Below are positions 50,330 to 61,140 of a stretch of DNA of 64,000 bases, one piece after another (position 1 is the stretch's first letter; every line of letters starts with the position of its first letter). Below the pieces are notes generated by a model. That model had not been told where the DNA came from. It did not search any database and was given only the letters and a program-made list of their open reading frames with translations. The stretch is from contig NZ_JNXC01000036.1 of NCBI RefSeq assembly GCF_000716595.1, positions 1-64,000 on the forward strand, given 5' to 3'. Both the position numbers and the translations under genes were made by a program. The DNA comes from Saccharothrix sp. NRRL B-16314. GTDB lineage: Bacteria > Actinomycetota > Actinomycetes > Mycobacteriales > Pseudonocardiaceae.

Positions 50330-51142
50330 GTGCGGTTGAAGTTCCTGTTGCAACCCGGCTGGCTGGCCTTGACGCTGGTGGTCTGGGTGTTCGCGGGCGC
50401 GTGCTTCACGCTGCTCGCACCGTGGCAGTTCAGCCGCGACGTGGAGCGCGAGGCGCAAAACAGCGCGGTCACCTCGTCCGTCCGCACCGATCCGGTGCCC
50501 GTCACCACGCTGCTCGACCGGCCGAACGCCGACGTCGAGTGGCGGCGCGTCACGCTGACCGGCCGCTACCTGCCCGAGGGGCAGGCCGTGGCACGGCTGC
50601 GGACCGTCCAGGGCGAGGCGGCGTTCGAGGTGCTGACCCCGTTCCAGCTGACCGGTGGTCCGATCGTGCTGGTCGACCGGGGCTACGTGCGGCCCGTCAA
50701 CGGCATCAAGGTGCCCGGGTTGAAGCCCGTGCCGACCGACGAGGTGACCCTGGTCGCGTTGGTCCGGCGTGAGGAGTCGGACCAGCGCGAGGCGTTCCAG
50801 GAGGACCAGCACCGCCAGGTGTACTCGGTGAACGCGGCCGTGGTCGGGCGCGCGGCGGGGCTGGACATCCGGCCGGGCTACTTCCAGCTCACCGAGGGCC
50901 AGCCCGGCGTCGAGGAGTCGTTGCCGCTGCCGAAGCTCGACGCGGGGCCGTTCTTCTCCTACGCGTTGCAGTGGATCGCGTTCGGCGCGATGGCGCTCGG
51001 CGGCTGGCTGTACTTCACCGTCCGCGAGGTCCGGCCCGGCGGCGCGCTGGACGACCGCGACCGGGACCAGGGCAAGACCAAGGTCAGGCGGAAGTCCGTC
51101 GCCGAGCAGCTCGCCGAAGACGAGGCCGCACCAGCGCGATGA
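50330..51142 (+). CDS. SURF1-family cytochrome oxidase assembly protein
   Basis: 270 residues. Two membrane helices (about residues 11-30 and 212-230) enclose the extracytoplasmic domain, with GPFFSYALQWIAFGAMAL being the SURF1 signature before the second helix. It helps assemble cytochrome c oxidase. TACCGT ends 6 nt before the GTG, which indicates a leaderless message. Its 3' end overlaps the convergent cobD gene by 59 bp. Confidence 0.93.
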   Translation: MRLKFLLQPGWLALTLVVWVFAGACFTLLAPWQFSRDVEREAQNSAVTSSVRTDPVPVTTLLDRPNADVEWRRVTLTGRYLPEGQAVARLRTVQGEAAFEVLTPFQLTGGPIVLVDRGYVRPVNGIKVPGLKPVPTDEVTLVALVRREESDQREAFQEDQHRQVYSVNAAVVGRAAGLDIRPGYFQLTEGQPGVEESLPLPKLDAGPFFSYALQWIAFGAMALGGWLYFTVREVRPGGALDDRDRDQGKTKVRRKSVAEQLAEDEAAPAR

Positions 51143-52052
51143 CCGCGGTCACGGCCGCCGCCGAGGCGCCGACGACCCGGGACAGCTCCACCGCCCGCGT
51201 CACGTGGCCCGCGTCGGGGTTGCGGCCGTGGCCGAGCACCGGCCGGTCCTCCGCGCCGTGCGCGTACACGGTCCGCCCACCCAGCCGGACCTCCAACGCC
51301 CCCGCGAACGCCGCCTCCACCTGACCCGCGTTGGGGCTGGGGTGCGCCGCCGCGTCGCGTCGCCACGTCCGCCAAGCCTCACCCGCGGACCCGCCGACGA
51401 CCGGCGCGCCCGCCGTCGTGAGCAGTGCCGCCAGCCGTGACGGCACGAGGTTCGCCACGTCGTCCAACCGGGCCGCCGACCAGCCGAACCGCAGGTAGCG
51501 CTCGTTGCGGTGGCCGACCATGGCGTCCAGGGTGTTCGCCGCGCGGTAGCCGAGCAGACCGGGCACGCCCGCGACCGCTCCCCAGAAGAGCGGGGCCACC
51601 ACCGCGTCGGACGTGTTCTCCGCCACGGACTCGACGGTCGCCTTCGCCAGGCCCAGCGTGTCCAGCTTGCGCGGCTCACGCCCGCACAGGTTGGGCAAAC
51701 GATTGCGCGCCGCTTCGAGGTCGCCGCCGTCCAGCTCGCGGCCCATCGCGGTGCCCTCGTCGGCCAACGACGACCCGCCGAGCACGATCCACGTCGCCGC
51801 GGCCGTGGTCAGGGCCTGCGCCACCTGGCTGCGCCGGCCCAGCCGTTCCACCGCGACACCGGCCAGCACGGTGCCGCCGACCAGCGCCACCGTGTGCGCG
51901 ACCCCCGCCGCCTTGTGGTCGCGGTGCAGCTTGCGCTCCAGCGCCGCCGCAGCCCGCCCGAATCCCGCTACCGGGTGATACTTCCGGGGGTCGCCGAACA
52001 CCGCGTCGGCGGCCACGCCCAGCACCAACCCCACCGCCCGCCCCAGACTCAC
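51084..52052 (-). CDS. cobD: Adenosylcobinamide-phosphate synthase (CobD/CbiB)
   Basis: 322 residues, several membrane helices. Conserved DAVFGDPRKYHPVAGFGR at the start, TVESVAENTSDAVVAPLFW in the centre and SPNAGQVEAAFAGAL near the end define the family. It attaches the aminopropanol (or its phosphate) arm to cobyric acid. Start GTG 52052; the Wadjet-like operon begins 51 bp away on the other strand. Confidence 0.95.
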   Translation of the reverse strand: MSLGRAVGLVLGVAADAVFGDPRKYHPVAGFGRAAAALERKLHRDHKAAGVAHTVALVGGTVLAGVAVERLGRRSQVAQALTTAAATWIVLGGSSLADEGTAMGRELDGGDLEAARNRLPNLCGREPRKLDTLGLAKATVESVAENTSDAVVAPLFWGAVAGVPGLLGYRAANTLDAMVGHRNERYLRFGWSAARLDDVANLVPSRLAALLTTAGAPVVGGSAGEAWRTWRRDAAAHPSPNAGQVEAAFAGALEVRLGGRTVYAHGAEDRPVLGHGRNPDAGHVTRAVELSRVVGASAAAVTAVIALVRPRLRRAARRRTSA

Positions 52053-52103: not shown

Positions 52104-53585
52104 GTGGAACCAGCCGGCCGCCTCAAGCTCTACGCCTACCTGGACGCGCGCGACCACCAGCGCACGTACCTGGCGATCATGCGGCTGTTCACCTCGACAC
52201 TGCTGGCCGACCTGTCCGCGGGCGAGGTCGCGGGCGCCCTGGCCGGCGCCGAGCGCGAGGGCCGGGTCGAGCCGGGCGAGTCGCGCATCGAGAACGTGAT
52301 CAACCGGCTCCGGCAGCTGGTCGAGTGGGGCAACCTGGTGCAGGGCCGGCGCGAGGTGGTGGCGTCGAGCATCGCCGAGTTCCAGCACGGCAGCGTGCGC
52401 TACCAGGTCAGCAAGCTCGCGGTCCGGGTGCAGCGCGACGTGGACGAACTGCTGCGCGTGCCCGAGGGCGCGCGGGAGGTGTCCCGGGAGCTGCTGCCCG
52501 CCGTGGAACGCGGTCTGGGCGGGCTGGGGCAGTCGCTGTCGGAGGCGTTGATCAGCGGCGGTCGCCGGCCGCGCGAGGTGCTGGCCGAGCAGGTCACCAC
52601 GCTGTTCCTGCAGCACGCCGAGCTGGCCGCGACCGTGCGCGACTTCTACGCGTACCTGGGTCAGGTCGTGACGCGGCACCACCTGGCGCCGGAGGAGATC
52701 TCGGGGTTCCGGAACCTGCTGGTCGAGTACATCCAGATGGTCGTGGAGGACGTGCTGCGGCACACCCCGGCCATCGCGGACGCCCTGGCGCGGGTGAACT
52801 CGGCGCGGTCCGAGCTGCTGCGGCTCCTGGGCCGCGCCGACCTCGGCGAGCAGGTCGAACGAGCGCGCGGGCGGTCCGCCGAGGACTGGCAGGAGCTGAC
52901 GGACTGGTTCGTGGACCGGCCCGGCCGGCCGAGCCAGGTGACGGCGTTGCGCGAGGCCACCGCGCGGGCGATCGGGTCGCTGCTGGCCAGCGTGAAGCGG
53001 GCCACGTCCGGCGGCGGGCTGCTGCCGAGCCGCCGGGCCGAGCTGCTGAAGCTGGCGTCGTGGTTCGACTCCGGGTCCCGGGCGCAGGCCAACGAGCTGT
53101 ACGCGGCGGCGTTCGGGCTCTACTCCGCGCGGCACGTCTCGCCGGCGCCCGAGCACGACAGCGACAACGAGCGCACGCCGTGGCGGGACGGTCCGGTGGT
53201 CGACGTCACCGTGAGCGTGCGCAGCCGCAGTGATCGCGGCGCGCGGGGGCGGGCGTCGCGGATCCTGGACGACCCGATGACCGAGCAGTCGTTGCTGGCC
53301 GAGGCGCGGGAGGCGGACGAACGGCGGGCCGCGTCGGTGGCGGAGCTGGCCGCGGCGGCGCCCCGGTTGGCCGAGACGACGTTGTCCGGTGAGGCCCTGG
53401 GCGTGTTGTGCGAGCTGCTGACGCTGGCCATGGCGCAGCGGGACACGGCGTTCGACCCGGGTTCGGCCACCGACCCGGTGCGCGGCCTGCGGGTCACCGT
53501 CGCGCACGCCCGAGGCCGGGAGACCCGCATCCGGTCGGCCGCGGGCACCCTGACCCTGCACGACTCGACGTTGGTGCTCGACTGA
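52104..53585 (+). CDS. jetA: Wadjet type III JetA (TIGR02677/DUF2397 family)
   Basis: 493 residues from GTG 52104, with AGGGTGG in front. Family blocks are YLAIMRLFTSTL near residue 25, LRQLVEWGNLVQG at ~70 and SIAEFQHGSVRYQVS, followed by a long helical body and a small C-terminal domain. In Wadjet, JetA is the kleisin-like subunit bridging the two JetC heads of an SMC-type loop-extruding complex that finds small closed circular DNA. Coupled to jetB by TGATG. TAGGGT upstream could instead be a -10 element of a near-leaderless message. Confidence 0.9.
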   Translation: MEPAGRLKLYAYLDARDHQRTYLAIMRLFTSTLLADLSAGEVAGALAGAEREGRVEPGESRIENVINRLRQLVEWGNLVQGRREVVASSIAEFQHGSVRYQVSKLAVRVQRDVDELLRVPEGAREVSRELLPAVERGLGGLGQSLSEALISGGRRPREVLAEQVTTLFLQHAELAATVRDFYAYLGQVVTRHHLAPEEISGFRNLLVEYIQMVVEDVLRHTPAIADALARVNSARSELLRLLGRADLGEQVERARGRSAEDWQELTDWFVDRPGRPSQVTALREATARAIGSLLASVKRATSGGGLLPSRRAELLKLASWFDSGSRAQANELYAAAFGLYSARHVSPAPEHDSDNERTPWRDGPVVDVTVSVRSRSDRGARGRASRILDDPMTEQSLLAEAREADERRAASVAELAAAAPRLAETTLSGEALGVLCELLTLAMAQRDTAFDPGSATDPVRGLRVTVAHARGRETRIRSAAGTLTLHDSTLVLD

Positions 53586-54751
53586 TGTTCGACGACCTCT
53601 CCGAGATCGACGCGGCGAACGCGGTGCGGTGCGCCCGCACCCTGCTGCGCCGGCCGTTGCTGCGCGCGGACGGCCCGGACGGCGAGCTGCTGTCGCTGGT
53701 CTACCGGCACCGGGCCGCGTTGCAGGACCTGTTCGCCCGGACGCTCGGGTACCGGCTGGCGGTGGAGCGGCGGTTCGCCCGGCTCTACAAGTCCGGGCCG
53801 GGCGCCGACGACTCCCGCGGCGTGCTCGGCATGTCACCGCGCGGGTACGCGTACGTGGCGTTGACGATGGCGGTGCTGACCGGGGTCGGCCGGCAGACGC
53901 TGCTGTCGCGGCTGGTGGCGGACATCCGCGCGGCGGCGGCGGAGGCCGGGATCACCGTCGTGGACGACGTGGCGGACCGGCGCGCGTTGACGGCGGCGTT
54001 GCGGCACCTGGTGTCGCTGGGCGTGCTGCACGAGACCGAGGGCACGGTGGACGCGCAGGCCGAGGCGTTGATCACCATCGACACGGACCTGCTCGGGCAG
54101 CTGCTCACCGGTCCGGTGGCCGAGGCGACGTCGCCCGATCAGCTGGTGGCGCTGGCCGCCCGGCCGGGTCCGCGCGGTGTCGAGCACGCGGTGCGGCGCA
54201 AGCTGGTGGAGAACCCGGTGGTGCTGTACGCGGACCTGCCGGCCGAGCAGGCGGACTGGCTGCGGCGCAACCAGCGCAAGGAGTCCGCGCTGCTGGAGAC
54301 GTGCTTCGGGCTCCACACCGAGTGCCGGGTGGAAGGCGTGCTGGCCGCCGACCCGGAGGACTACCTGACGGACCTGTACTTCCCCGGCACGTCCACGGTC
54401 GCGCGGATCGCGTTGCTGGCGCTGCCCGAGCTGCTGTCCGCGGACCCGCGCCCCGACGGCCGGCACGCGGTCGAGCGCGCGGAGTTGCGGTCGGTGTGCG
54501 AGCAGTTGGTGGAGGACTACCCTGCCGCGTGGTCGAAGCAGTTCACCGAGGACCTGGACCGGCTGACCGACGAGGTGCTGGAACTGCTGCGCCGCATGGG
54601 GTTGGCGGTGCCAGGGGATGACGGGTGGCTGCTCAACGCCGCCGCGCACCGCTGGATACCGCAGCCCGACGGCGATCCGGAACGGGAAGCGGAGCCCGTC
54701 GTCGTCCCCGAAGTGCCGAGCTGGTCGTTGTTCGATGAGGAGACCGCGTGA
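53585..54751 (+). CDS. jetB: Wadjet type III JetB (TIGR02678/DUF2398 family)
   Basis: 388 residues. Motifs are RCARTLLRRPLLRADGPD at the start, LGYRLAVERRFARLYK, RGYAYVALTMAVL and VGRQTLLSRLV, fitting TIGR02678. JetB is the winged-helix KITE-like subunit that binds the kleisin. ATG 53585 overlaps the jetA stop, and its own stop overlaps jetC (GTGA), so the three are made in fixed order and probably fixed ratio. Confidence 0.92.
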   Translation: MFDDLSEIDAANAVRCARTLLRRPLLRADGPDGELLSLVYRHRAALQDLFARTLGYRLAVERRFARLYKSGPGADDSRGVLGMSPRGYAYVALTMAVLTGVGRQTLLSRLVADIRAAAAEAGITVVDDVADRRALTAALRHLVSLGVLHETEGTVDAQAEALITIDTDLLGQLLTGPVAEATSPDQLVALAARPGPRGVEHAVRRKLVENPVVLYADLPAEQADWLRRNQRKESALLETCFGLHTECRVEGVLAADPEDYLTDLYFPGTSTVARIALLALPELLSADPRPDGRHAVERAELRSVCEQLVEDYPAAWSKQFTEDLDRLTDEVLELLRRMGLAVPGDDGWLLNAAAHRWIPQPDGDPEREAEPVVVPEVPSWSLFDEETA

Positions 54752-57700
54752 ACAGGTGGCGGCTGCACAGGGGCGGCATCGTCAACATCTGGCAGTACAC
54801 CGAGCAGTCGTTCGACTTCTCCGGTGGGCGCGCGATCTTCCAGGGCACCAACGGGTCCGGCAAGTCGCGCACGCTGGAGCTGCTGCTGCCGCTGTGCCTG
54901 GACGGCGACCTGCGGCAGGTCGGCTCCAAGGGCTTCGACACGGTGTCGCTGCGGCGGCTCATGCTGGACGACTACGACGGCGGGCCGAACCGCATCGGGT
55001 ACGCGTGGGTCGAGCTGGAACGCGAGGGCGAGTTCCTGACGTGCGGGTTGGGCGTGAAGGCGTCCAAGACGTCGCAGGCGATCACCGACTCGTGGCGGTT
55101 CATCACGCCCCTGCGAGTGGGGCACGACCTGGCGCTGGTGGGCGCGGAGCGGACGCCGCTGGGCCCGGTGCAGCTGCGCGACCTGGTCGGCGCGGACTGC
55201 GTGCTGGAGGAGGCCGCGTTCCGGGCTCGCGTGGCGGAGACCGTGTACGGCGTGCCCGCGGCCCGGTACGGCGACCTCCTGCACCTCCAGCGGACGCTGC
55301 GCAACCCGGACGTCGGGCTGAAGGTGCTGGAAGGGCAGCTGGAGCAGATCCTGTCCGACGCGCTGCCGCCGTTGGACCAGGTGATGGTGGAGCAGCTGGC
55401 GACGTCGTTCGACGACCTGGAGTCGATCCGGGAGAACATCACCCGGCTGTCGTCGGCGGACGCGGCGCTGGGGACGTTCCTCAAGACGTACTCCGACTAC
55501 GCGTTCGGCGGTTTGCGCACGGCGGCCGAGCGGTTGGGCTCGGCCGAGGACGGGGTGCGGAAGCTGGAACGGGCGTCGGCTCGGCTGTCGGCGTCCTTGA
55601 CCGGGTCGCTGGCGGCCCGTGCGGCGGCGGAGCAGTCGCTGTCGGAGCTGGAAGCCGGTGAGCAGCGGGCCGAGGAGACCATCGGCGCGCTGAAGGAGCT
55701 GCCCGCGTTCCGGGATCTCCAGGACTTGCAGACGCGCGAGAAGCTGGTGGCGGAGAAGCGTTCGTCGGCCGTGGCGGCGTTGGACATGGCGAACAAGCAG
55801 CGGTTGCAGGAGGACGGCGCGGTCGACGGCGTGCTGCGGCTGTTGCGGCGGCTGGCCGAGGACCTGGGCTCGGCGGAGGAGCTGGTGGAGCCGCTGCGCC
55901 ACCACCTGCGCGCGGCCGGCCTCTCCCCCGCGGCGGTGCCGGACGTCCCCCGGGTGTCCACTTTGGACGCCATGGTGCGGACGGAGTCGGTGCGGGCCAA
56001 GCCTGATCCGGAAGCCGAGCCGCTGCCGATCGAACGCCGCGTGCCGCCGGCGTTGGACGAGCAGGGGTTGGACGAGCCGGCGTTGGACGACCTCGTGTCG
56101 CGCACGTCGTCGATCGCGTCTTCGGCACGGCAGCGGGGTGCCCTGGCGCTCGCGCTGGCCGCGCAGGCGGCTGAGCTGGACACCGCGCAACGCCAGGTGG
56201 ACGCCCTCCAGCTGACCGCGCGGGACGCGCAGCGCGCGGCCACGGAGGCGGCGGCGTTGCGCAACCAGGAGGCGCAGGAGCTGGCCGAGGTCGCGCAGGC
56301 GTGGCTGGCGGACGTGGAGGCCTGGCAGGACGCCGGGCCGACCCGGCCGGAAGGCGGGCTGGCGCTGCCCGCGTCGGTGGACCCGTCCACGGCGCGGGCG
56401 TTGGCCGGTGCGGCTCGTGAGTGGGTCGGGCCCCTGGTGACGGCGGCGCGGGAGCGCGCGCACGCGATCGGGCAGCGGAACGCCGAGCTGAGCCGGACCA
56501 TCGACGCGCGGGACGCCGAGTTGACCGGCCTCCGGTCGGGCACGGCGCAGGCGCCCGCGCGGGGGCGTTTCGTGGCGGCCGACCGTGATCCGTCGACCGG
56601 GGCGCCGTTCTACCGGCTGGTGGACTTCCAGGCGGGCGTGGACGTGGAGCAGCGCGCCGGACTGGAGGCGGCCCTCGAAGCGTCCGGGCTGTTGGACGCG
56701 TGGGTCGGGCCGACCGGGGCGGTGGACGGCGATGTCGTCGCCGTCGCGGCCGACCCCGTGGACGGACCGTCGCTGGCGTCGGTCCTGGTGCCCACGGTCG
56801 AGCCCGACTCGCCGGTGTCCCCTTCGGTGGTCGCCGGCCTGCTCGCGTCGGTGTCGCTCGACCGGGGCGCGTTCGCGGTGTCCGTCGACGGCCGGTGGCA
56901 GGCGGGCGTGCTGACGGGCGGCTGGCGCAAGGAGATGGCCGAGTTCATCGGCGCCGGCGCGAGGGAAGCGGCCCGGCAGCGGCGGATCGGCGAGCTGGAG
57001 GACGAGCTGTCGGCGTTGCGGGCCGACCTGGGCGTCGCGGCGGCCGACCTGCTGGCGGCACGCGGTCTGGTCGAGGAGTGGGAGCAGTACGTCGACCGGT
57101 TCCCGTCCGACCGGGACCTGCTCGCGCGGCACGGGCGGCTCCACACGGCGCGGGAGACGGCCGACCGCGCCGCCGCCCACGCGGAGAAGCTGCGGGCCGA
57201 GCTGGAAGCGGCTCAAGCGCGTTACGAGGCGTCACGTGCCGCCGTGGTCCGGCAGGCGGGCGAGGCCGAGCTGCCGGCGGACACGGAAGGGCTCCGGAGC
57301 GCGCAGGGCGACGCGGCCGAGGCCCAGCGCATCGCGGACCGGCTCGGTGACGTGCTGCGCCGTCAGTGCCAGGCCACCGTGCGGGACCTGACCGACGCGA
57401 CGCACCGCTACCACGCGGCCGTGGACGACCGGGTGGCCGCCGAGTCCGAGGCCGAGGCGCGGTGCCGGGACTACGGGACGCAGGCGTCGACCCTGGCCGA
57501 GCTGACCGACGCGATCGGCGGTGAGGCGCGGGAGATCGCCGAGCAGCTGTCCGGTGTGGAGCGTTCACGGGTGCAGATCCGGGCCGACTTGAAGCGGGTG
57601 CGGGAGGACGTCACGTCGGCGCGCGAGGAGGCGGCGAAGCTCAAGGCGCAGATCGAGACGGCGGCGGAGCAGCTGGCGTCGGCGCAGGACGTGTCGGCAC

Positions 57701-58779
57701 GCGCGGCGGAGCACTTCAAGGCGGCGCTCGACGCGCCCGGTGTGCTGGCCGCCGCGCTGCCGGACGGGCCGGTGGACGTGCCGGTGGACGTGCCTTCGGT
57801 GCGCGAAGCCCTGGCCGGGAGCGACCGGCGCGGTGCGGGTGAGGCGACGGTGATCGCCAAGTTGCAGGCGTTGCAGACGTCGTTGGCCGGCAGTCACGAC
57901 ATCACCGCCGACCAGCACGCGGGGCTGCTGACGGTGATGGTCAGCGGTGAGGAAGGCGCCCGGCCGGTCGCGGCGGCGGCGCGGCAGGTGACGACGAAGC
58001 TCGGCGAGCAGCGCGGTCTGCTGGACAGCCAGTACCAGGTGATCTTCGCCGACTACCTGATCCGCGACCTGGCCGAGTGGTTGCGCGGCCAGATCGCGGT
58101 GGCCGAGGACCTGTGCAAGCGGATGAACGGCGTGCTGTCGCGGGCGCGGTCGAGCCAGGGTGTGCACGTCAAGCTGGCGTGGAAGCACTCGGCAGCGCTG
58201 GACGAGGCGACCCGGGACGCGTTGACGCTGGTCCGCTTGCCGTACGCGGAGCGGACGCCGGAGCAGGACGCGACCCTGCGGCGGGTGTTCACGGAGCGGA
58301 TCGAGGAGGAGCGGGACCGGCACAGCGGCAACTACGCGGACGTCCTGTCCCGTGCGCTGGACTACCGGACCTGGCACCAGTTCACCGTGACCGTCGCCGA
58401 CACCGCGCCGGACGGCGGTCCCCGTGAACGCCGGCTGCGGCAGCTGTCGTCCGGTGAGACGCGGTTGATCTCGTACGTGACGCTGTTCGCCGCTGCCGCT
58501 TCGTTCTACGACGCGGTGAGCGGCGACTCGTCGCCGTTGCGCCTGGTGCTGCTGGACGAGGCGTTCGAACGGCTGGACGACCCCACGATCGCCCGCATGC
58601 TGGGTCTCCTGGTCGACCTGGACATGGACTGGGTGATCACCTGGCCGAGCGGCTGGGGCGTCTCCGACAAGATCCCCCGGATGCACATCTACGACGTCCT
58701 CCGCCCCCGCAACGGCCGCGGCGTCGCCTGCACCCAGACCACCTGGGACGGCGCCGCCCTCGACCGCGTCGATCCCTAG
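54748..58779 (+). CDS. jetC: Wadjet type III JetC, SMC/MukB-like ATPase (TIGR02680)
   Basis: 1343 residues. Walker A GTNGSGKS at residues 33-40, long coiled coils at ~270-560 and ~740-1010 around a hinge-like middle, ABC signature LSSGETRLISY near 1233 and Walker B LRLVLLDEAFERLDD near 1270, all intact. It should be the ATP-driven loop-extruding motor of the complex. Start GTG overlaps the jetB stop. The gene is followed by 37 bp and then by the TIR-domain gene instead of a standard jetD. Confidence 0.95.
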   Translation: MNRWRLHRGGIVNIWQYTEQSFDFSGGRAIFQGTNGSGKSRTLELLLPLCLDGDLRQVGSKGFDTVSLRRLMLDDYDGGPNRIGYAWVELEREGEFLTCGLGVKASKTSQAITDSWRFITPLRVGHDLALVGAERTPLGPVQLRDLVGADCVLEEAAFRARVAETVYGVPAARYGDLLHLQRTLRNPDVGLKVLEGQLEQILSDALPPLDQVMVEQLATSFDDLESIRENITRLSSADAALGTFLKTYSDYAFGGLRTAAERLGSAEDGVRKLERASARLSASLTGSLAARAAAEQSLSELEAGEQRAEETIGALKELPAFRDLQDLQTREKLVAEKRSSAVAALDMANKQRLQEDGAVDGVLRLLRRLAEDLGSAEELVEPLRHHLRAAGLSPAAVPDVPRVSTLDAMVRTESVRAKPDPEAEPLPIERRVPPALDEQGLDEPALDDLVSRTSSIASSARQRGALALALAAQAAELDTAQRQVDALQLTARDAQRAATEAAALRNQEAQELAEVAQAWLADVEAWQDAGPTRPEGGLALPASVDPSTARALAGAAREWVGPLVTAARERAHAIGQRNAELSRTIDARDAELTGLRSGTAQAPARGRFVAADRDPSTGAPFYRLVDFQAGVDVEQRAGLEAALEASGLLDAWVGPTGAVDGDVVAVAADPVDGPSLASVLVPTVEPDSPVSPSVVAGLLASVSLDRGAFAVSVDGRWQAGVLTGGWRKEMAEFIGAGAREAARQRRIGELEDELSALRADLGVAAADLLAARGLVEEWEQYVDRFPSDRDLLARHGRLHTARETADRAAAHAEKLRAELEAAQARYEASRAAVVRQAGEAELPADTEGLRSAQGDAAEAQRIADRLGDVLRRQCQATVRDLTDATHRYHAAVDDRVAAESEAEARCRDYGTQASTLAELTDAIGGEAREIAEQLSGVERSRVQIRADLKRVREDVTSAREEAAKLKAQIETAAEQLASAQDVSARAAEHFKAALDAPGVLAAALPDGPVDVPVDVPSVREALAGSDRRGAGEATVIAKLQALQTSLAGSHDITADQHAGLLTVMVSGEEGARPVAAAARQVTTKLGEQRGLLDSQYQVIFADYLIRDLAEWLRGQIAVAEDLCKRMNGVLSRARSSQGVHVKLAWKHSAALDEATRDALTLVRLPYAERTPEQDATLRRVFTERIEEERDRHSGNYADVLSRALDYRTWHQFTVTVADTAPDGGPRERRLRQLSSGETRLISYVTLFAAAASFYDAVSGDSSPLRLVLLDEAFERLDDPTIARMLGLLVDLDMDWVITWPSGWGVSDKIPRMHIYDVLRPRNGRGVACTQTTWDGAALDRVDP

Positions 58780-58816
58780 CCCGGGACCTTTCCCGCCGTC
58801 TCGGTAATGTCGGCAA

Positions 58817-59941
58817 GTGACCTTGAGCAAGGCCGATGTCCACCAGTTGTACGGCGGGGAGTCCTATCGGGGGCTCTGGGAGAAGGCGCTCAACGCGATC
58901 GAGTCGGACGATGTGAGCTTCAAGCTGCACACCGGCGATGTGCGCACCGCCAACGACATCAGCGGCCTTCTCGGTGCGTTCGACCGGCCCAAACCGGCGC
59001 GAAGGGCCGTTCGCCCGGGAACGCGGACGACGGTGACCGTTGCCGAGCTCGACACTCGGCTACGCCGCGGCAAGTTCGGCGGCGGCCTGCGCGAACTGCT
59101 CGAACTGCTCACGGGCAAGCCGGTGCTGACCCGGGCCGAACGCCGGGCGATCTTCGAATCGGAACTGGCCCGGGTCGGCCTGGCCAGGGATCACTGGGCG
59201 GACGCGTGGCTCGATCACTGCCGGAATCCGAAGCGCATGGACGCGACGGAAGTGCGGACGACCGCACGGCAGTGCGCCGCGGTACTGGCGGAGTTGGTCC
59301 TCGACCCCTCCGCGCGCACCGACGAGCACAAGCCGCTGGAAAGCTTCGCCGAGATCTTCACCGGCAGCGCCAACGGCTTGAGCACGCGGGAGCTCGCCGG
59401 GCAGCTCGTGCTCAGGGCGCTGGCCCTGGCTCACGGCAGGTCGACTCCGGTGACATCGCACGAACGCTGGCTGCTGTGGTTGAAATCCGGGGTGATCATG
59501 GACGACAAGTCGACATGGGACGTTTTCATCAGTCACGCCCACGAGGACAAGGACGACTTCGTCCGCCCACTCGCCGCCGAACTGGACCGCGCCGGACTGC
59601 GCGTCTGGTACGACGAGTTCACCATGGTGCCCGGTGACAGCGTTCGGGAGTCGATCGACCGCGGCATCCGGCGGTCCCAGGCCGGAATCCTGATCATGAG
59701 TGCCCACTTCTTCCACAAGTTCTGGACCAAGCAGGAGACGAACGGCCTGTTCAGCATGGCGAGCAGCCACGGCACCAGGTTGATCCCGGTCCTCCACGAG
59801 CTGGACCCGAAGGAACTCGTGAACCACTCACCGATGTTGGCCGACCTGTACGCGATCCGGTCGGAGGTCGGCATGGAAGCGGTGGTGGCCGGCGCGCTGC
59901 GTGCGGTCGGCAAGCGGGCCGGGGGCTCCCCGACCGGTTAG
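58817..59941 (+). CDS. JetD-like N-terminal region fused to a TIR domain
   Basis: 374 residues. Residues ~10-230 follow the N-terminal part of JetD type III (TIGR02679, DUF3323-like): VTVAELDTRLRRGKFGGGL, LRELLELLTG, LAGQLVLRALALA, and then WLKSGVIMDD, where JetD would enter its DUF2399 Toprim-like nuclease. From residue 234 a TIR domain begins (WDVFISHAHEDKDD, RVWYDEFTMVPGDSVRESID, FFHKFWTKQE). Glu307 in the WxxxE motif is the likely NADase catalytic residue. No Toprim acid motif remains. TAATGT ends 6 nt before GTG 58817, so it may have its own leaderless promoter besides the jetABC message. Its stop overlaps the convergent ROK gene by 4 bp. Confidence 0.85.
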   Translation: MTLSKADVHQLYGGESYRGLWEKALNAIESDDVSFKLHTGDVRTANDISGLLGAFDRPKPARRAVRPGTRTTVTVAELDTRLRRGKFGGGLRELLELLTGKPVLTRAERRAIFESELARVGLARDHWADAWLDHCRNPKRMDATEVRTTARQCAAVLAELVLDPSARTDEHKPLESFAEIFTGSANGLSTRELAGQLVLRALALAHGRSTPVTSHERWLLWLKSGVIMDDKSTWDVFISHAHEDKDDFVRPLAAELDRAGLRVWYDEFTMVPGDSVRESIDRGIRRSQAGILIMSAHFFHKFWTKQETNGLFSMASSHGTRLIPVLHELDPKELVNHSPMLADLYAIRSEVGMEAVVAGALRAVGKRAGGSPTG

Positions 59942-61140
59942 ACCACGCGGGTGGGGGTGCGGTGGCGGACGCCGCCCGCGGCGAGGAACTCGGCCACCGG
60001 CAGGGTCGCCGCGCCCAGCGCGACCGACTCGGGGCCCAGTTCGCACAACGTGATGGACGCCTGCTCGAACGGCCGGTGCAGGGCGTGGCGGGCGGCTTCG
60101 GCGCGCACGTCCTCCAGGATCTCCGGCCCGAGGAGCAGCCCCGCCCAGCCGCCCACTATCACCTGCGACGGGTTGAACAGGTTGATCAGGTTCGCGATGC
60201 CCACCCCGGTGTACCGGGCGGTCTCGGCCAGGACGTGCCGGGCTTCCGGCGAACCGTCGACCACCAGCGCCGCCAACGCCGCCTCCTGCTCGGCCGGCGC
60301 ATCGGCCCGCACGGCCCGGTACCGCTCGACCACCGCCGACGCGCCGATGTACGCCTCAAGGCACCCCTGCGCGCCACACCGGCACGGACGGCCGTCCAGC
60401 GCGATGGTCGTGTGACCCCACTCCCCCGCGCCACCGGACGAACCGCGGTACAGCACGCCGCCCGCGATGACGCTCGCACCGACGCCCGACCCGATCAACG
60501 CCACCACGGCGTCACCCGTGCCGCGGCCCGCGCCGAACCAGACCTCCGCCTGCCCCAACGTGTTCGCGCCGTTGTCCAAGAACAGCGGCAGCTCGGTCCC
60601 GTCCCTGAGCATCCGCTCCAACGCGACCCCGTGCCAGCCGACGGTCTGCGCGTACACCCGGCCCCGCTCGACCTGACCGGGCACGCCGATCCCGACGCCG
60701 AGCACGTCACCCACCCCGCTGTCCGCGAGGCAGCGGTCGAGCCCGGCCAGCACCCGCCGCGCCACGTCGTCCGCCGAGTGGACGTCCGGCTCCATCGGGA
60801 TCGTCGCCTCGGCCAGGCGCTGCAACGTCAGGTCGAACACCTCGACCAGCACGTGCGTCTCGCCGACATCGACACCGACCACCGCCGCGAAAGCCGGGTT
60901 GACCCGCAGCAGGATCCGCGGCCGGCCGCCGTCCGAGTCGACCTGCCCGGCCTCGACCACCACGCCGTCCGAGAGGAGTTCCGCGACCACCGTGCTGACC
61001 GACGCCTGGCTCAGCCCGGTCACGCCCGCGATCTCCTGGCGGCTGCGCGGCTGGTCGAAGTACAGCGCGCGCAGCACCCGCGCCCGGTTACCGGCACGCA
61101 GGTCGCGCACGGTCAGCTTGCGGTGCACGGCGACCCCCAT
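59938..61140 (-). CDS. ROK-family transcriptional regulator/sugar kinase-like
   Basis: 400 residues. N-terminal winged helix (SRQEIAGVTGLSQASVSTVV, residues ~32-52), then the ROK fold with GVGIGVPGQVERG, GEWGHTTI and the zinc motif CRCGAQGCLE. As in NagC/XylR types, a sugar or sugar phosphate is the probable effector. It is convergent with the TIR gene and probably unrelated to it. Confidence 0.93.
   Translation of the reverse strand: MGVAVHRKLTVRDLRAGNRARVLRALYFDQPRSRQEIAGVTGLSQASVSTVVAELLSDGVVVEAGQVDSDGGRPRILLRVNPAFAAVVGVDVGETHVLVEVFDLTLQRLAEATIPMEPDVHSADDVARRVLAGLDRCLADSGVGDVLGVGIGVPGQVERGRVYAQTVGWHGVALERMLRDGTELPLFLDNGANTLGQAEVWFGAGRGTGDAVVALIGSGVGASVIAGGVLYRGSSGGAGEWGHTTIALDGRPCRCGAQGCLEAYIGASAVVERYRAVRADAPAEQEAALAALVVDGSPEARHVLAETARYTGVGIANLINLFNPSQVIVGGWAGLLLGPEILEDVRAEAARHALHRPFEQASITLCELGPESVALGAATLPVAEFLAAGGVRHRTPTRVV

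Follow-up and report, generated by a model that had tools for sequence, protein, structure and literature searches.

Organization of the locus

The window analysed here is a stretch of 64,000 nucleotides from Saccharothrix sp. NRRL B-16314 (contig NZ_JNXC01000036.1, positions 1 to 64,000). Its positions 52104 to 59941 hold four genes, all on the + strand: jetA, jetB and jetC, which encode a structural maintenance of chromosomes (SMC) complex of the Wadjet kind, and a fourth gene, whose product joins the N-terminal domain of the nuclease JetD to a TIR domain. Wadjet is known as an SMC motor that measures DNA circles, combined with a nuclease that cuts them. The features are as follows (positions in the window, aa: amino acids).

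52104..53585, + strand: jetA, kleisin-type subunit (DUF2397), GTG start, 493 aa; PF09660, E 1e-122
53585..54751, + strand: jetB, KITE-type subunit (DUF2398); PF09661, E 1.7e-100; TIGR02678 above cut-off
54748..58779, + strand: jetC, SMC ATPase, 1343 aa; TIGR02680, 688.7 bits (cut-off 462.85)
58817..59941, + strand: JetD-N/TIR fusion gene, GTG start, 374 aa, 37 bases past the jetC stop codon
58943..59506, + strand: DUF3323 (JetD N-terminal domain), residues 43-230, E 1.7e-24
59522..59809, + strand: TIR_2 match, residues 236-331, E 1.3e-23; structural match to about residue 367
59723..59737, + strand: W303 to E307 (WxxxE), whose Glu aligns with that of AbTIR and PdTIR
58805..58810, + strand: TAATGT, possible -10 element (TANNNT) found by eye, 6 bases before the GTG, as if leaderless
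51084..52052, - strand: cbiB (CobD/CbiB family), PF03186, E 1.3e-95; left border of the locus in 25/25 genomes of the genus
59938..61140, - strand: ROK-family gene, PF00480, E 7e-46; right border of the locus

The profile matches and the overlaps uphold the original prediction that jetA, jetB and jetC are complete, with overlapping stops and starts, and place all four genes at the coordinates given above. The jetB ATG start overlaps the jetA TGA stop (TGATG), and the jetC GTG start overlaps the jetB stop (GTGA). JetA is the sole DUF2397 match in the window genome; it scores 147 bits against TIGR02677, under the model cut-off of 165.85. JetC retains complete ATPase motifs: GTNGSGKS (Walker A), LSSGE (signature) and LVLLDEAF (Walker B). 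Sequence matches of JetA and JetC in the PDB include 9qe0.

The operon was originally assigned to Wadjet type III. This has to be corrected to type II, the class of the PADLOC profiles best matched by JetA, JetB and JetC and of the top Jet match of the fusion. The best match of JetA is JetA2 (665.6 bits) and that of JetC is JetC2 (1219 bits), against 6.6 bits for JetC3 and 32 for LmuB.

The JetD-N/TIR fusion protein

The relation of residues 1-233 to JetD, which had been judged by eye, is confirmed by several comparisons. Besides the DUF3323 match, residues 5-232 match positions 5-235 of the 423 in the JetD2 profile PDLC00557 (E 1.1e-25), and residues 63-232 match TIGR02679 at 60.6 bits, below the cut-off of 196. 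When the fusion family is compared by hhalign to a single canonical JetD, fusion residues 13-233 pair with residues 8-222 of the latter (probability 95.9, E 5.1e-9). An AlphaFold2 model gives the DUF3323 region a predicted local distance difference test score (pLDDT) of mostly at least 90; a model of the N-terminal half alone from one sequence (mean pLDDT 58) was not used.

At the point where the JetD nuclease domain would follow, the protein turns into a TIR domain. The predicted full TIR domain with a WxxxE motif ending in Glu307 is borne out by the TIR_2 match and by W303 and E307, invariant in 9/9 fusion proteins (that of the window and eight relatives). The TIR half is 34-44% identical to AbTIR, BtTir and PdTIR and can be superposed on them with the Glu aligned. 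The overall best PADLOC matches of the fusion are to TIR parts (PDC-S66, E 1.7e-46; ThsB1, E 1e-29), and none of its 21 PADLOC matches is to a family named LmuA. No DUF2399 is detected in the fusion protein by profile search at E <= 1, and no DUF2399/Toprim nuclease lies within 5.2 kb past jetC in the window operon.

The ratio of nonsynonymous to synonymous substitution rates (dN/dS) in the three pairs of carriers is 0.17-0.24 for the whole fusion gene and 0.10-0.21 for its TIR half, and both halves are under purifying selection. Since both domains occur together in all nine proteins and dN/dS is low over the whole gene, the fusion is more than a chance joining.

Distribution of the fusion

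A protein search with the fusion scored 7997 candidates. Of the 25 matches listed, eight have the complete architecture (55-96% identity), and 17 have the TIR domain alone in common with the fusion. The named whole-architecture relatives are from Saccharothrix sp. S26, S. saharensis and Actinosynnema sp. NPDC050801. The genus sample of 25 genomes contains three carriers (the window genome, G020 and G022), and in all three the fusion lies near jetABC, 37 bases past jetC in the window and about 1.7 kb past it in the other two. The arrangement proposed for a search in relatives is thus found in two of the 24 other congeners. The ROK stop overlaps the fusion stop in 3/3 carriers.

In a sample of 396 genomes of the phylum, DUF3323 is found at 28 places in 26 genomes (E <= 1e-8). 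As paired from coordinates, DUF2399 follows it at 27 of them, and the sole exception is the window. Outside this sample DUF3323 does occur without DUF2399, and TIR is added only in the fusions. In a search with a profile of the N-terminal part, DUF2399 or TIR are the only partners seen among the 120 matches listed of 152, and a few have DUF3323 alone; the listed matches are 134-420 aa long owing to a length filter, which longer fusions escape. A scan of genome contigs, which used two patterns, both from the TIR part, and possibly excluded records near the window genome, kept 79 loci of 214 relatives. One of them (L033) has the whole fusion, and the matches of the other 78 start no earlier than residue 156.

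Cargo of mobile elements was considered and rejected: none of 324 matching plasmid records covers 80% of the query, and the matches in phages (6 records) and viral contigs (5 loci) involve the TIR part only. The arrangement had been presented as one without a known description, which agrees with the literature searched: no description of a JetD/TIR fusion was found in the partial texts covered, with subscription papers and preprints mostly outside them. The original observation is upheld, on stronger grounds than the sequence alone had offered.

The jetABC locus in the genus and family

JetA is present in 25/25 sampled genomes of the genus, at a single site and always beside cbiB; that of the other 24 congeners is 84-97% identical to the JetA of the window. 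The contents of the position past jetC were compared at 45 loci, 25 from the genus and 20 from the other genera of the family (20 of 34 carry JetA; one genome each). All but one of these loci extend at least 4.4 kb past jetC. JetD-like domains were sought with two custom profiles at E <= 1e-3. As a reference for the nuclease site, three acidic positions (E-D-D) are invariant in 25 aligned canonical JetDs; we take them, from work on JetD and Topo VI, to be catalytic.

Within the genus, the fourth position holds the fusion in three genomes and nothing JetD-like in 21; in one (G001) the contig ends inside jetC. In the other genera, a jetC-adjacent JetD with the E-D-D residues is present at four loci (G029, G036, G037, G048), a JetD with E changed to R at one (G055), a JetD 2.4 kb off with H-D-T at one (G031), DUF3323 alone at three (G025, G034, G045) and nothing JetD-like at 11. 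Each of the 44 readable loci encodes a JetC with complete Walker A, signature and Walker B motifs, and dN/dS of jetA, jetB and jetC is 0.07-0.33 in eight pairs, some without jetD at the locus. Among the 31 other jetA-bearing genomes of the phylum sample, by contrast, 24 have a DUF2399 match somewhere and seven have none.

The original prediction held that a TIR domain replaces the JetD nuclease. This is true as a domain swap within the protein. It does not describe a simple operon-wide exchange of JetD, because jetABC is present in every sampled genome of the genus, mostly without jetD beside it. At this SMC locus, from which the nuclease has mostly been lost, the fusion is an accessory occupant. 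Retention of the SMC operon throughout the genus while the nuclease is missing forms a surprising background to the fusion.

Several observations on related loci may be added. The protein following jetABC stops at the end of DUF3323, without a nuclease domain, at L122:9237-9884 (G025), L119/L192 (G034) and L175:8619-9350 (G045). Downstream of the truncated JetD of G025, a 44-base repeat occurs four times (L122:10202-10520; 72-131 bases from start to start). Two congeners carry extra, more distant type II sets with a canonical JetD (L147, G001:C233; L148, G009:C123), and jetD precedes jetA in the latter. The N-terminal JetB motif FDxLxxID, compared at the 45 loci, has F in 4/4 loci of other genera with an E-D-D JetD and L in 15/16 without one; within the genus F is found by eye in 3/3 carriers and 19/22 others, relatedness being ignored. 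In type I systems JetB contacts JetD through an IFDR motif at its N-terminus (excerpts of PMC10586767).

JetD homologues elsewhere in the window genome

A second, solitary JetD homologue, which combines DUF3323 with a divergent DUF2399, is encoded next to a peroxidase gene on contig C29 of the window genome (G000).

L149:4757-5761 (G000:C29:13756-14760): short JetD homologue, 334 aa

It has R and T at the positions of the first E and the last D of the canonical triad. In related short homologues, many of them named Lentzea, R-D-T replaces E-D-D in 46 of 49. The gene is full length in 8/25 genomes of the genus including that of the window (the other seven copies are 90-94% identical), and a ninth genome has pieces at contig ends; no close copy is found in the two other carriers of the fusion. 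With these substitutions the conserved homologue is probably nuclease-dead. A separate DUF2399 jetD elsewhere in the genome, coupled with a TIR gene not conserved beside jetABC, was originally named as grounds for giving up the idea of a replacement. A DUF2399 homologue does exist, with its R/T changes, yet the TIR gene lies near jetABC in two relatives, and so these grounds do not hold as a whole.

Contig C19 carries a four-gene set (L150:9751-16627) encoding a JetD_C protein, a 1022-aa SMC-like protein and proteins of 210 and 429 aa. It lies near a DDE transposase-like gene, is hardly matched by PADLOC outside its JetD part and is perhaps a divergent Wadjet relative. Its JetD_C protein is unlikely to serve jetABC, as the set has an SMC-like protein of its own.

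Arrival and ancestry of the fusion

In G014, the closest genome on the locus tree, jetABC is followed by genes for a MerR regulator and an NADH:flavin oxidoreductase and by ROK, without the fusion. The fusion of G020 and G022 lies between the oxidoreductase gene and ROK, and that of the window directly past jetC. About 36 bases resembling the end of ROK recur upstream of the fusion in G022 and, more weakly, in G020 (by eye).

The tree of CbiB, JetA, JetB and JetC (a quick method with Shimodaira-Hasegawa-like approximate likelihood-ratio (SH-aLRT) support only) puts the carriers in two places, and its supported branches force at least two changes. Between these places the synonymous divergence (dS) of the fusion is 0.91-0.94, about three times that of cbiB, jetA, jetB and ROK (0.26-0.37); for jetC it is 0.50-0.56. 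The two places on the tree together with this excess indicate that the fusion gene was acquired separately and came to occupy one and the same position. By these comparisons the fusion has been gained more than once, moved between species or repeatedly lost. Since the ROK junction common to the carriers allows homologous recombination through the flank, the two arrivals cannot count as fully independent in their choice of site; a recombination tract in ROK is only weakly hinted at, in its first 150 bases.

In a DUF3323 tree of 48 selected sequences, the nine fusions form one group (support 100/99). They side with nine JetD-like proteins of cbiB-linked loci and ten short homologues (98/93), and 20 other type II JetDs are on the far side; the tree is midpoint-rooted and has two long rows, and the program flags a meeting of long branches on that far side. 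This placement agrees with a docking domain matched to the JetABC of this locus.

Proposed function

On small circular DNA, JetABC becomes stuck while extruding; it recognises such DNA in this way and then switches JetD on (excerpts of PMC10586767, PMC12904381). JetABC is the sensor and JetD the executor (PMC10586767). In type I, the N-terminal CAP arm of JetD and its contacts with JetABC are known (excerpts of PMC10586767, PMC12904381); in Corynebacterium the kleisin links the nuclease (excerpt of PMC10123090).

By analogy, the fusion could dock on JetABC, be switched on by it and cleave NAD+, so that the cell is arrested and no DNA is cut; we give this reading, the most likely one, about an even chance. 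In its favour are the domain architecture, the likeness of the TIR half to AbTIR, BtTir and PdTIR, the grouping in the DUF3323 tree, the position near jetABC in all three carriers, the separate arrivals at one position and the complete ATPase motifs of JetC. The DUF3323 half would dock as JetD does, and JetABC stalled on small circular or phage DNA would signal to the effector. The TIR domain would be an NADase held inactive until triggered, and growth arrest or death could be the outcome. We infer, as was originally suggested, that abortive infection might result from such an SMC sensor and NADase. Because the operon has often lost its nuclease in the family, the fusion would supply an effector to a DNA motor otherwise running without one.

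A number of points weigh against this reading. Docking, trigger, NADase activity and arrest are each predicted. The fusion is found at E <= 1e-50 in only 3/390 family genomes, all of one genus. Since jetABC is present in all 25 genomes of the genus, its co-occurrence with the fusion is uninformative and adjacency alone counts. The carriers are patchy, because 45 of 500 shuffles cluster them on the locus tree equally well, and the second arrival could be due to homologous recombination through the ROK flank. At the three DUF3323-only loci the domain stands without a TIR domain: the fourth gene of G045 is a single reading frame of 244 codons encoding DUF3323 alone, and in G025 and G034 no effector gene evidently adjoins it (by eye). 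The G000:C29 homologue could be the partner of JetABC. A structure search with the whole fusion as query listed TIR structures with no solved JetD among them; this absence is not counted as a result, and a PDB sequence search with one canonical JetD2 finds no credible relative (best E 0.084).

Other points of this kind favour a stand-alone TIR defence protein, in which DUF3323 would be the protein's own sensing or DNA-binding arm, while jetABC would have an unrelated chromosome role. The MerR and oxidoreductase genes separate jetC from the fusion in G020 and G022, and the fusion gene may have its own promoter: the -10 candidate, of a form that we take to be the consensus, has a counterpart in both (TAGCAT, by eye). 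Moreover, most genomes of the genus retain jetABC with no JetD next to it. However, DUF3323 is normally part of a JetD, with DUF2399 after it in nearly all places of the phylum sample, the fusion groups with JetDs of the same locus, and it stays near jetABC in every carrier. A protein independent of JetABC is unlikely.

Presence of jetABC throughout the genus at low dN/dS would also agree with a guard, in which JetABC is a housekeeping SMC complex and the JetD-N/TIR protein, held inactive on it, is freed when a phage protein disables JetABC. We know of no phage inhibitor of JetABC. The related MukBEF is inhibited by a phage DNA mimic (excerpts of PMC7617805), but in Wadjet it is through JetABC that JetD is described as being activated (PMC10586767), and a guard seems quite improbable. 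Alternatively, as in Thoeris, the TIR domain could produce an isomer of cyclic ADP-ribose that signals to a separate effector. AbTIR and BtTir, which make such isomers, are among the nearest solved TIRs, and the ThsB1 profile is matched. Against this, the cbiB-ROK interval holds only jetABC and the fusion, with or without the MerR and oxidoreductase genes (present in two carriers); ThsA-type genes elsewhere were not searched for. Signalling of this type is very improbable. The patchy presence in the genus could point to a catalytically silent assembly module or a dispensable relic. This is hardly to be expected in view of the invariant E307 and W303 and the low dN/dS of the TIR half in all three pairs.

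Comparison with known systems

The jetA-jetB-jetC order, the overlaps and the family profiles (TIGR02677-TIGR02680) are those of Wadjet type II (JetABCD), and the fourth protein starts with DUF3323 as JetD2 does. It differs in having a TIR domain and no DUF2399/Toprim nuclease, and most loci of relatives have no fourth gene at all. Because one defining feature, the nuclease, fails, the system of the window is Wadjet-like and not a member of Wadjet.

The TIR half shares its fold and the aligned Glu with AbTIR, BtTir and PdTIR and with the TIR effectors of CBASS, SPARTA and Retron-TIR. To our knowledge, no bacterial TIR NADase or effector is attached to a JetD domain. Lamassu resembles the system in combining an SMC-like sensor with an exchangeable effector part, LmuA carrying various effector domains, TIR included (excerpts of PMC10586767). 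The complex found here is of the kleisin-KITE-SMC kind, with a JetD-type domain, whereas in Lamassu the SMC-like LmuB is described as related to Rad50 and the effector LmuA carries a docking domain of its own; the JetC scores for JetC2 and LmuB given above place the system of the window outside Lamassu. Three-gene SMC complexes without a nuclease, namely MukBEF and several other operons of the Wadjet group, have already been reported (excerpts of PMC7617805). The window differs from them in the added TIR fusion and in a JetC of the type II family TIGR02680.

Implications

More broadly, JetABC could be an effector-neutral sensor of DNA topology, a core machine freed from its nuclease. In Saccharothrix, a JetD docking domain and a TIR domain would have made it an SMC-triggered NAD+ suicide switch, an abortive-infection Wadjet. 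This generalization is a tentative one, with chances a little short of even. A conserved JetD/TIR hybrid in the position of jetD would demonstrate that, as in Lamassu, the sensor is able to drive another output. It also makes signal transfer from JetABC testable, as the docking domain could be assayed via NAD+ rather than DNA cleavage. A second testable question is why this family of actinomycetes keeps JetABC with JetD absent, truncated or altered at its nuclease site.

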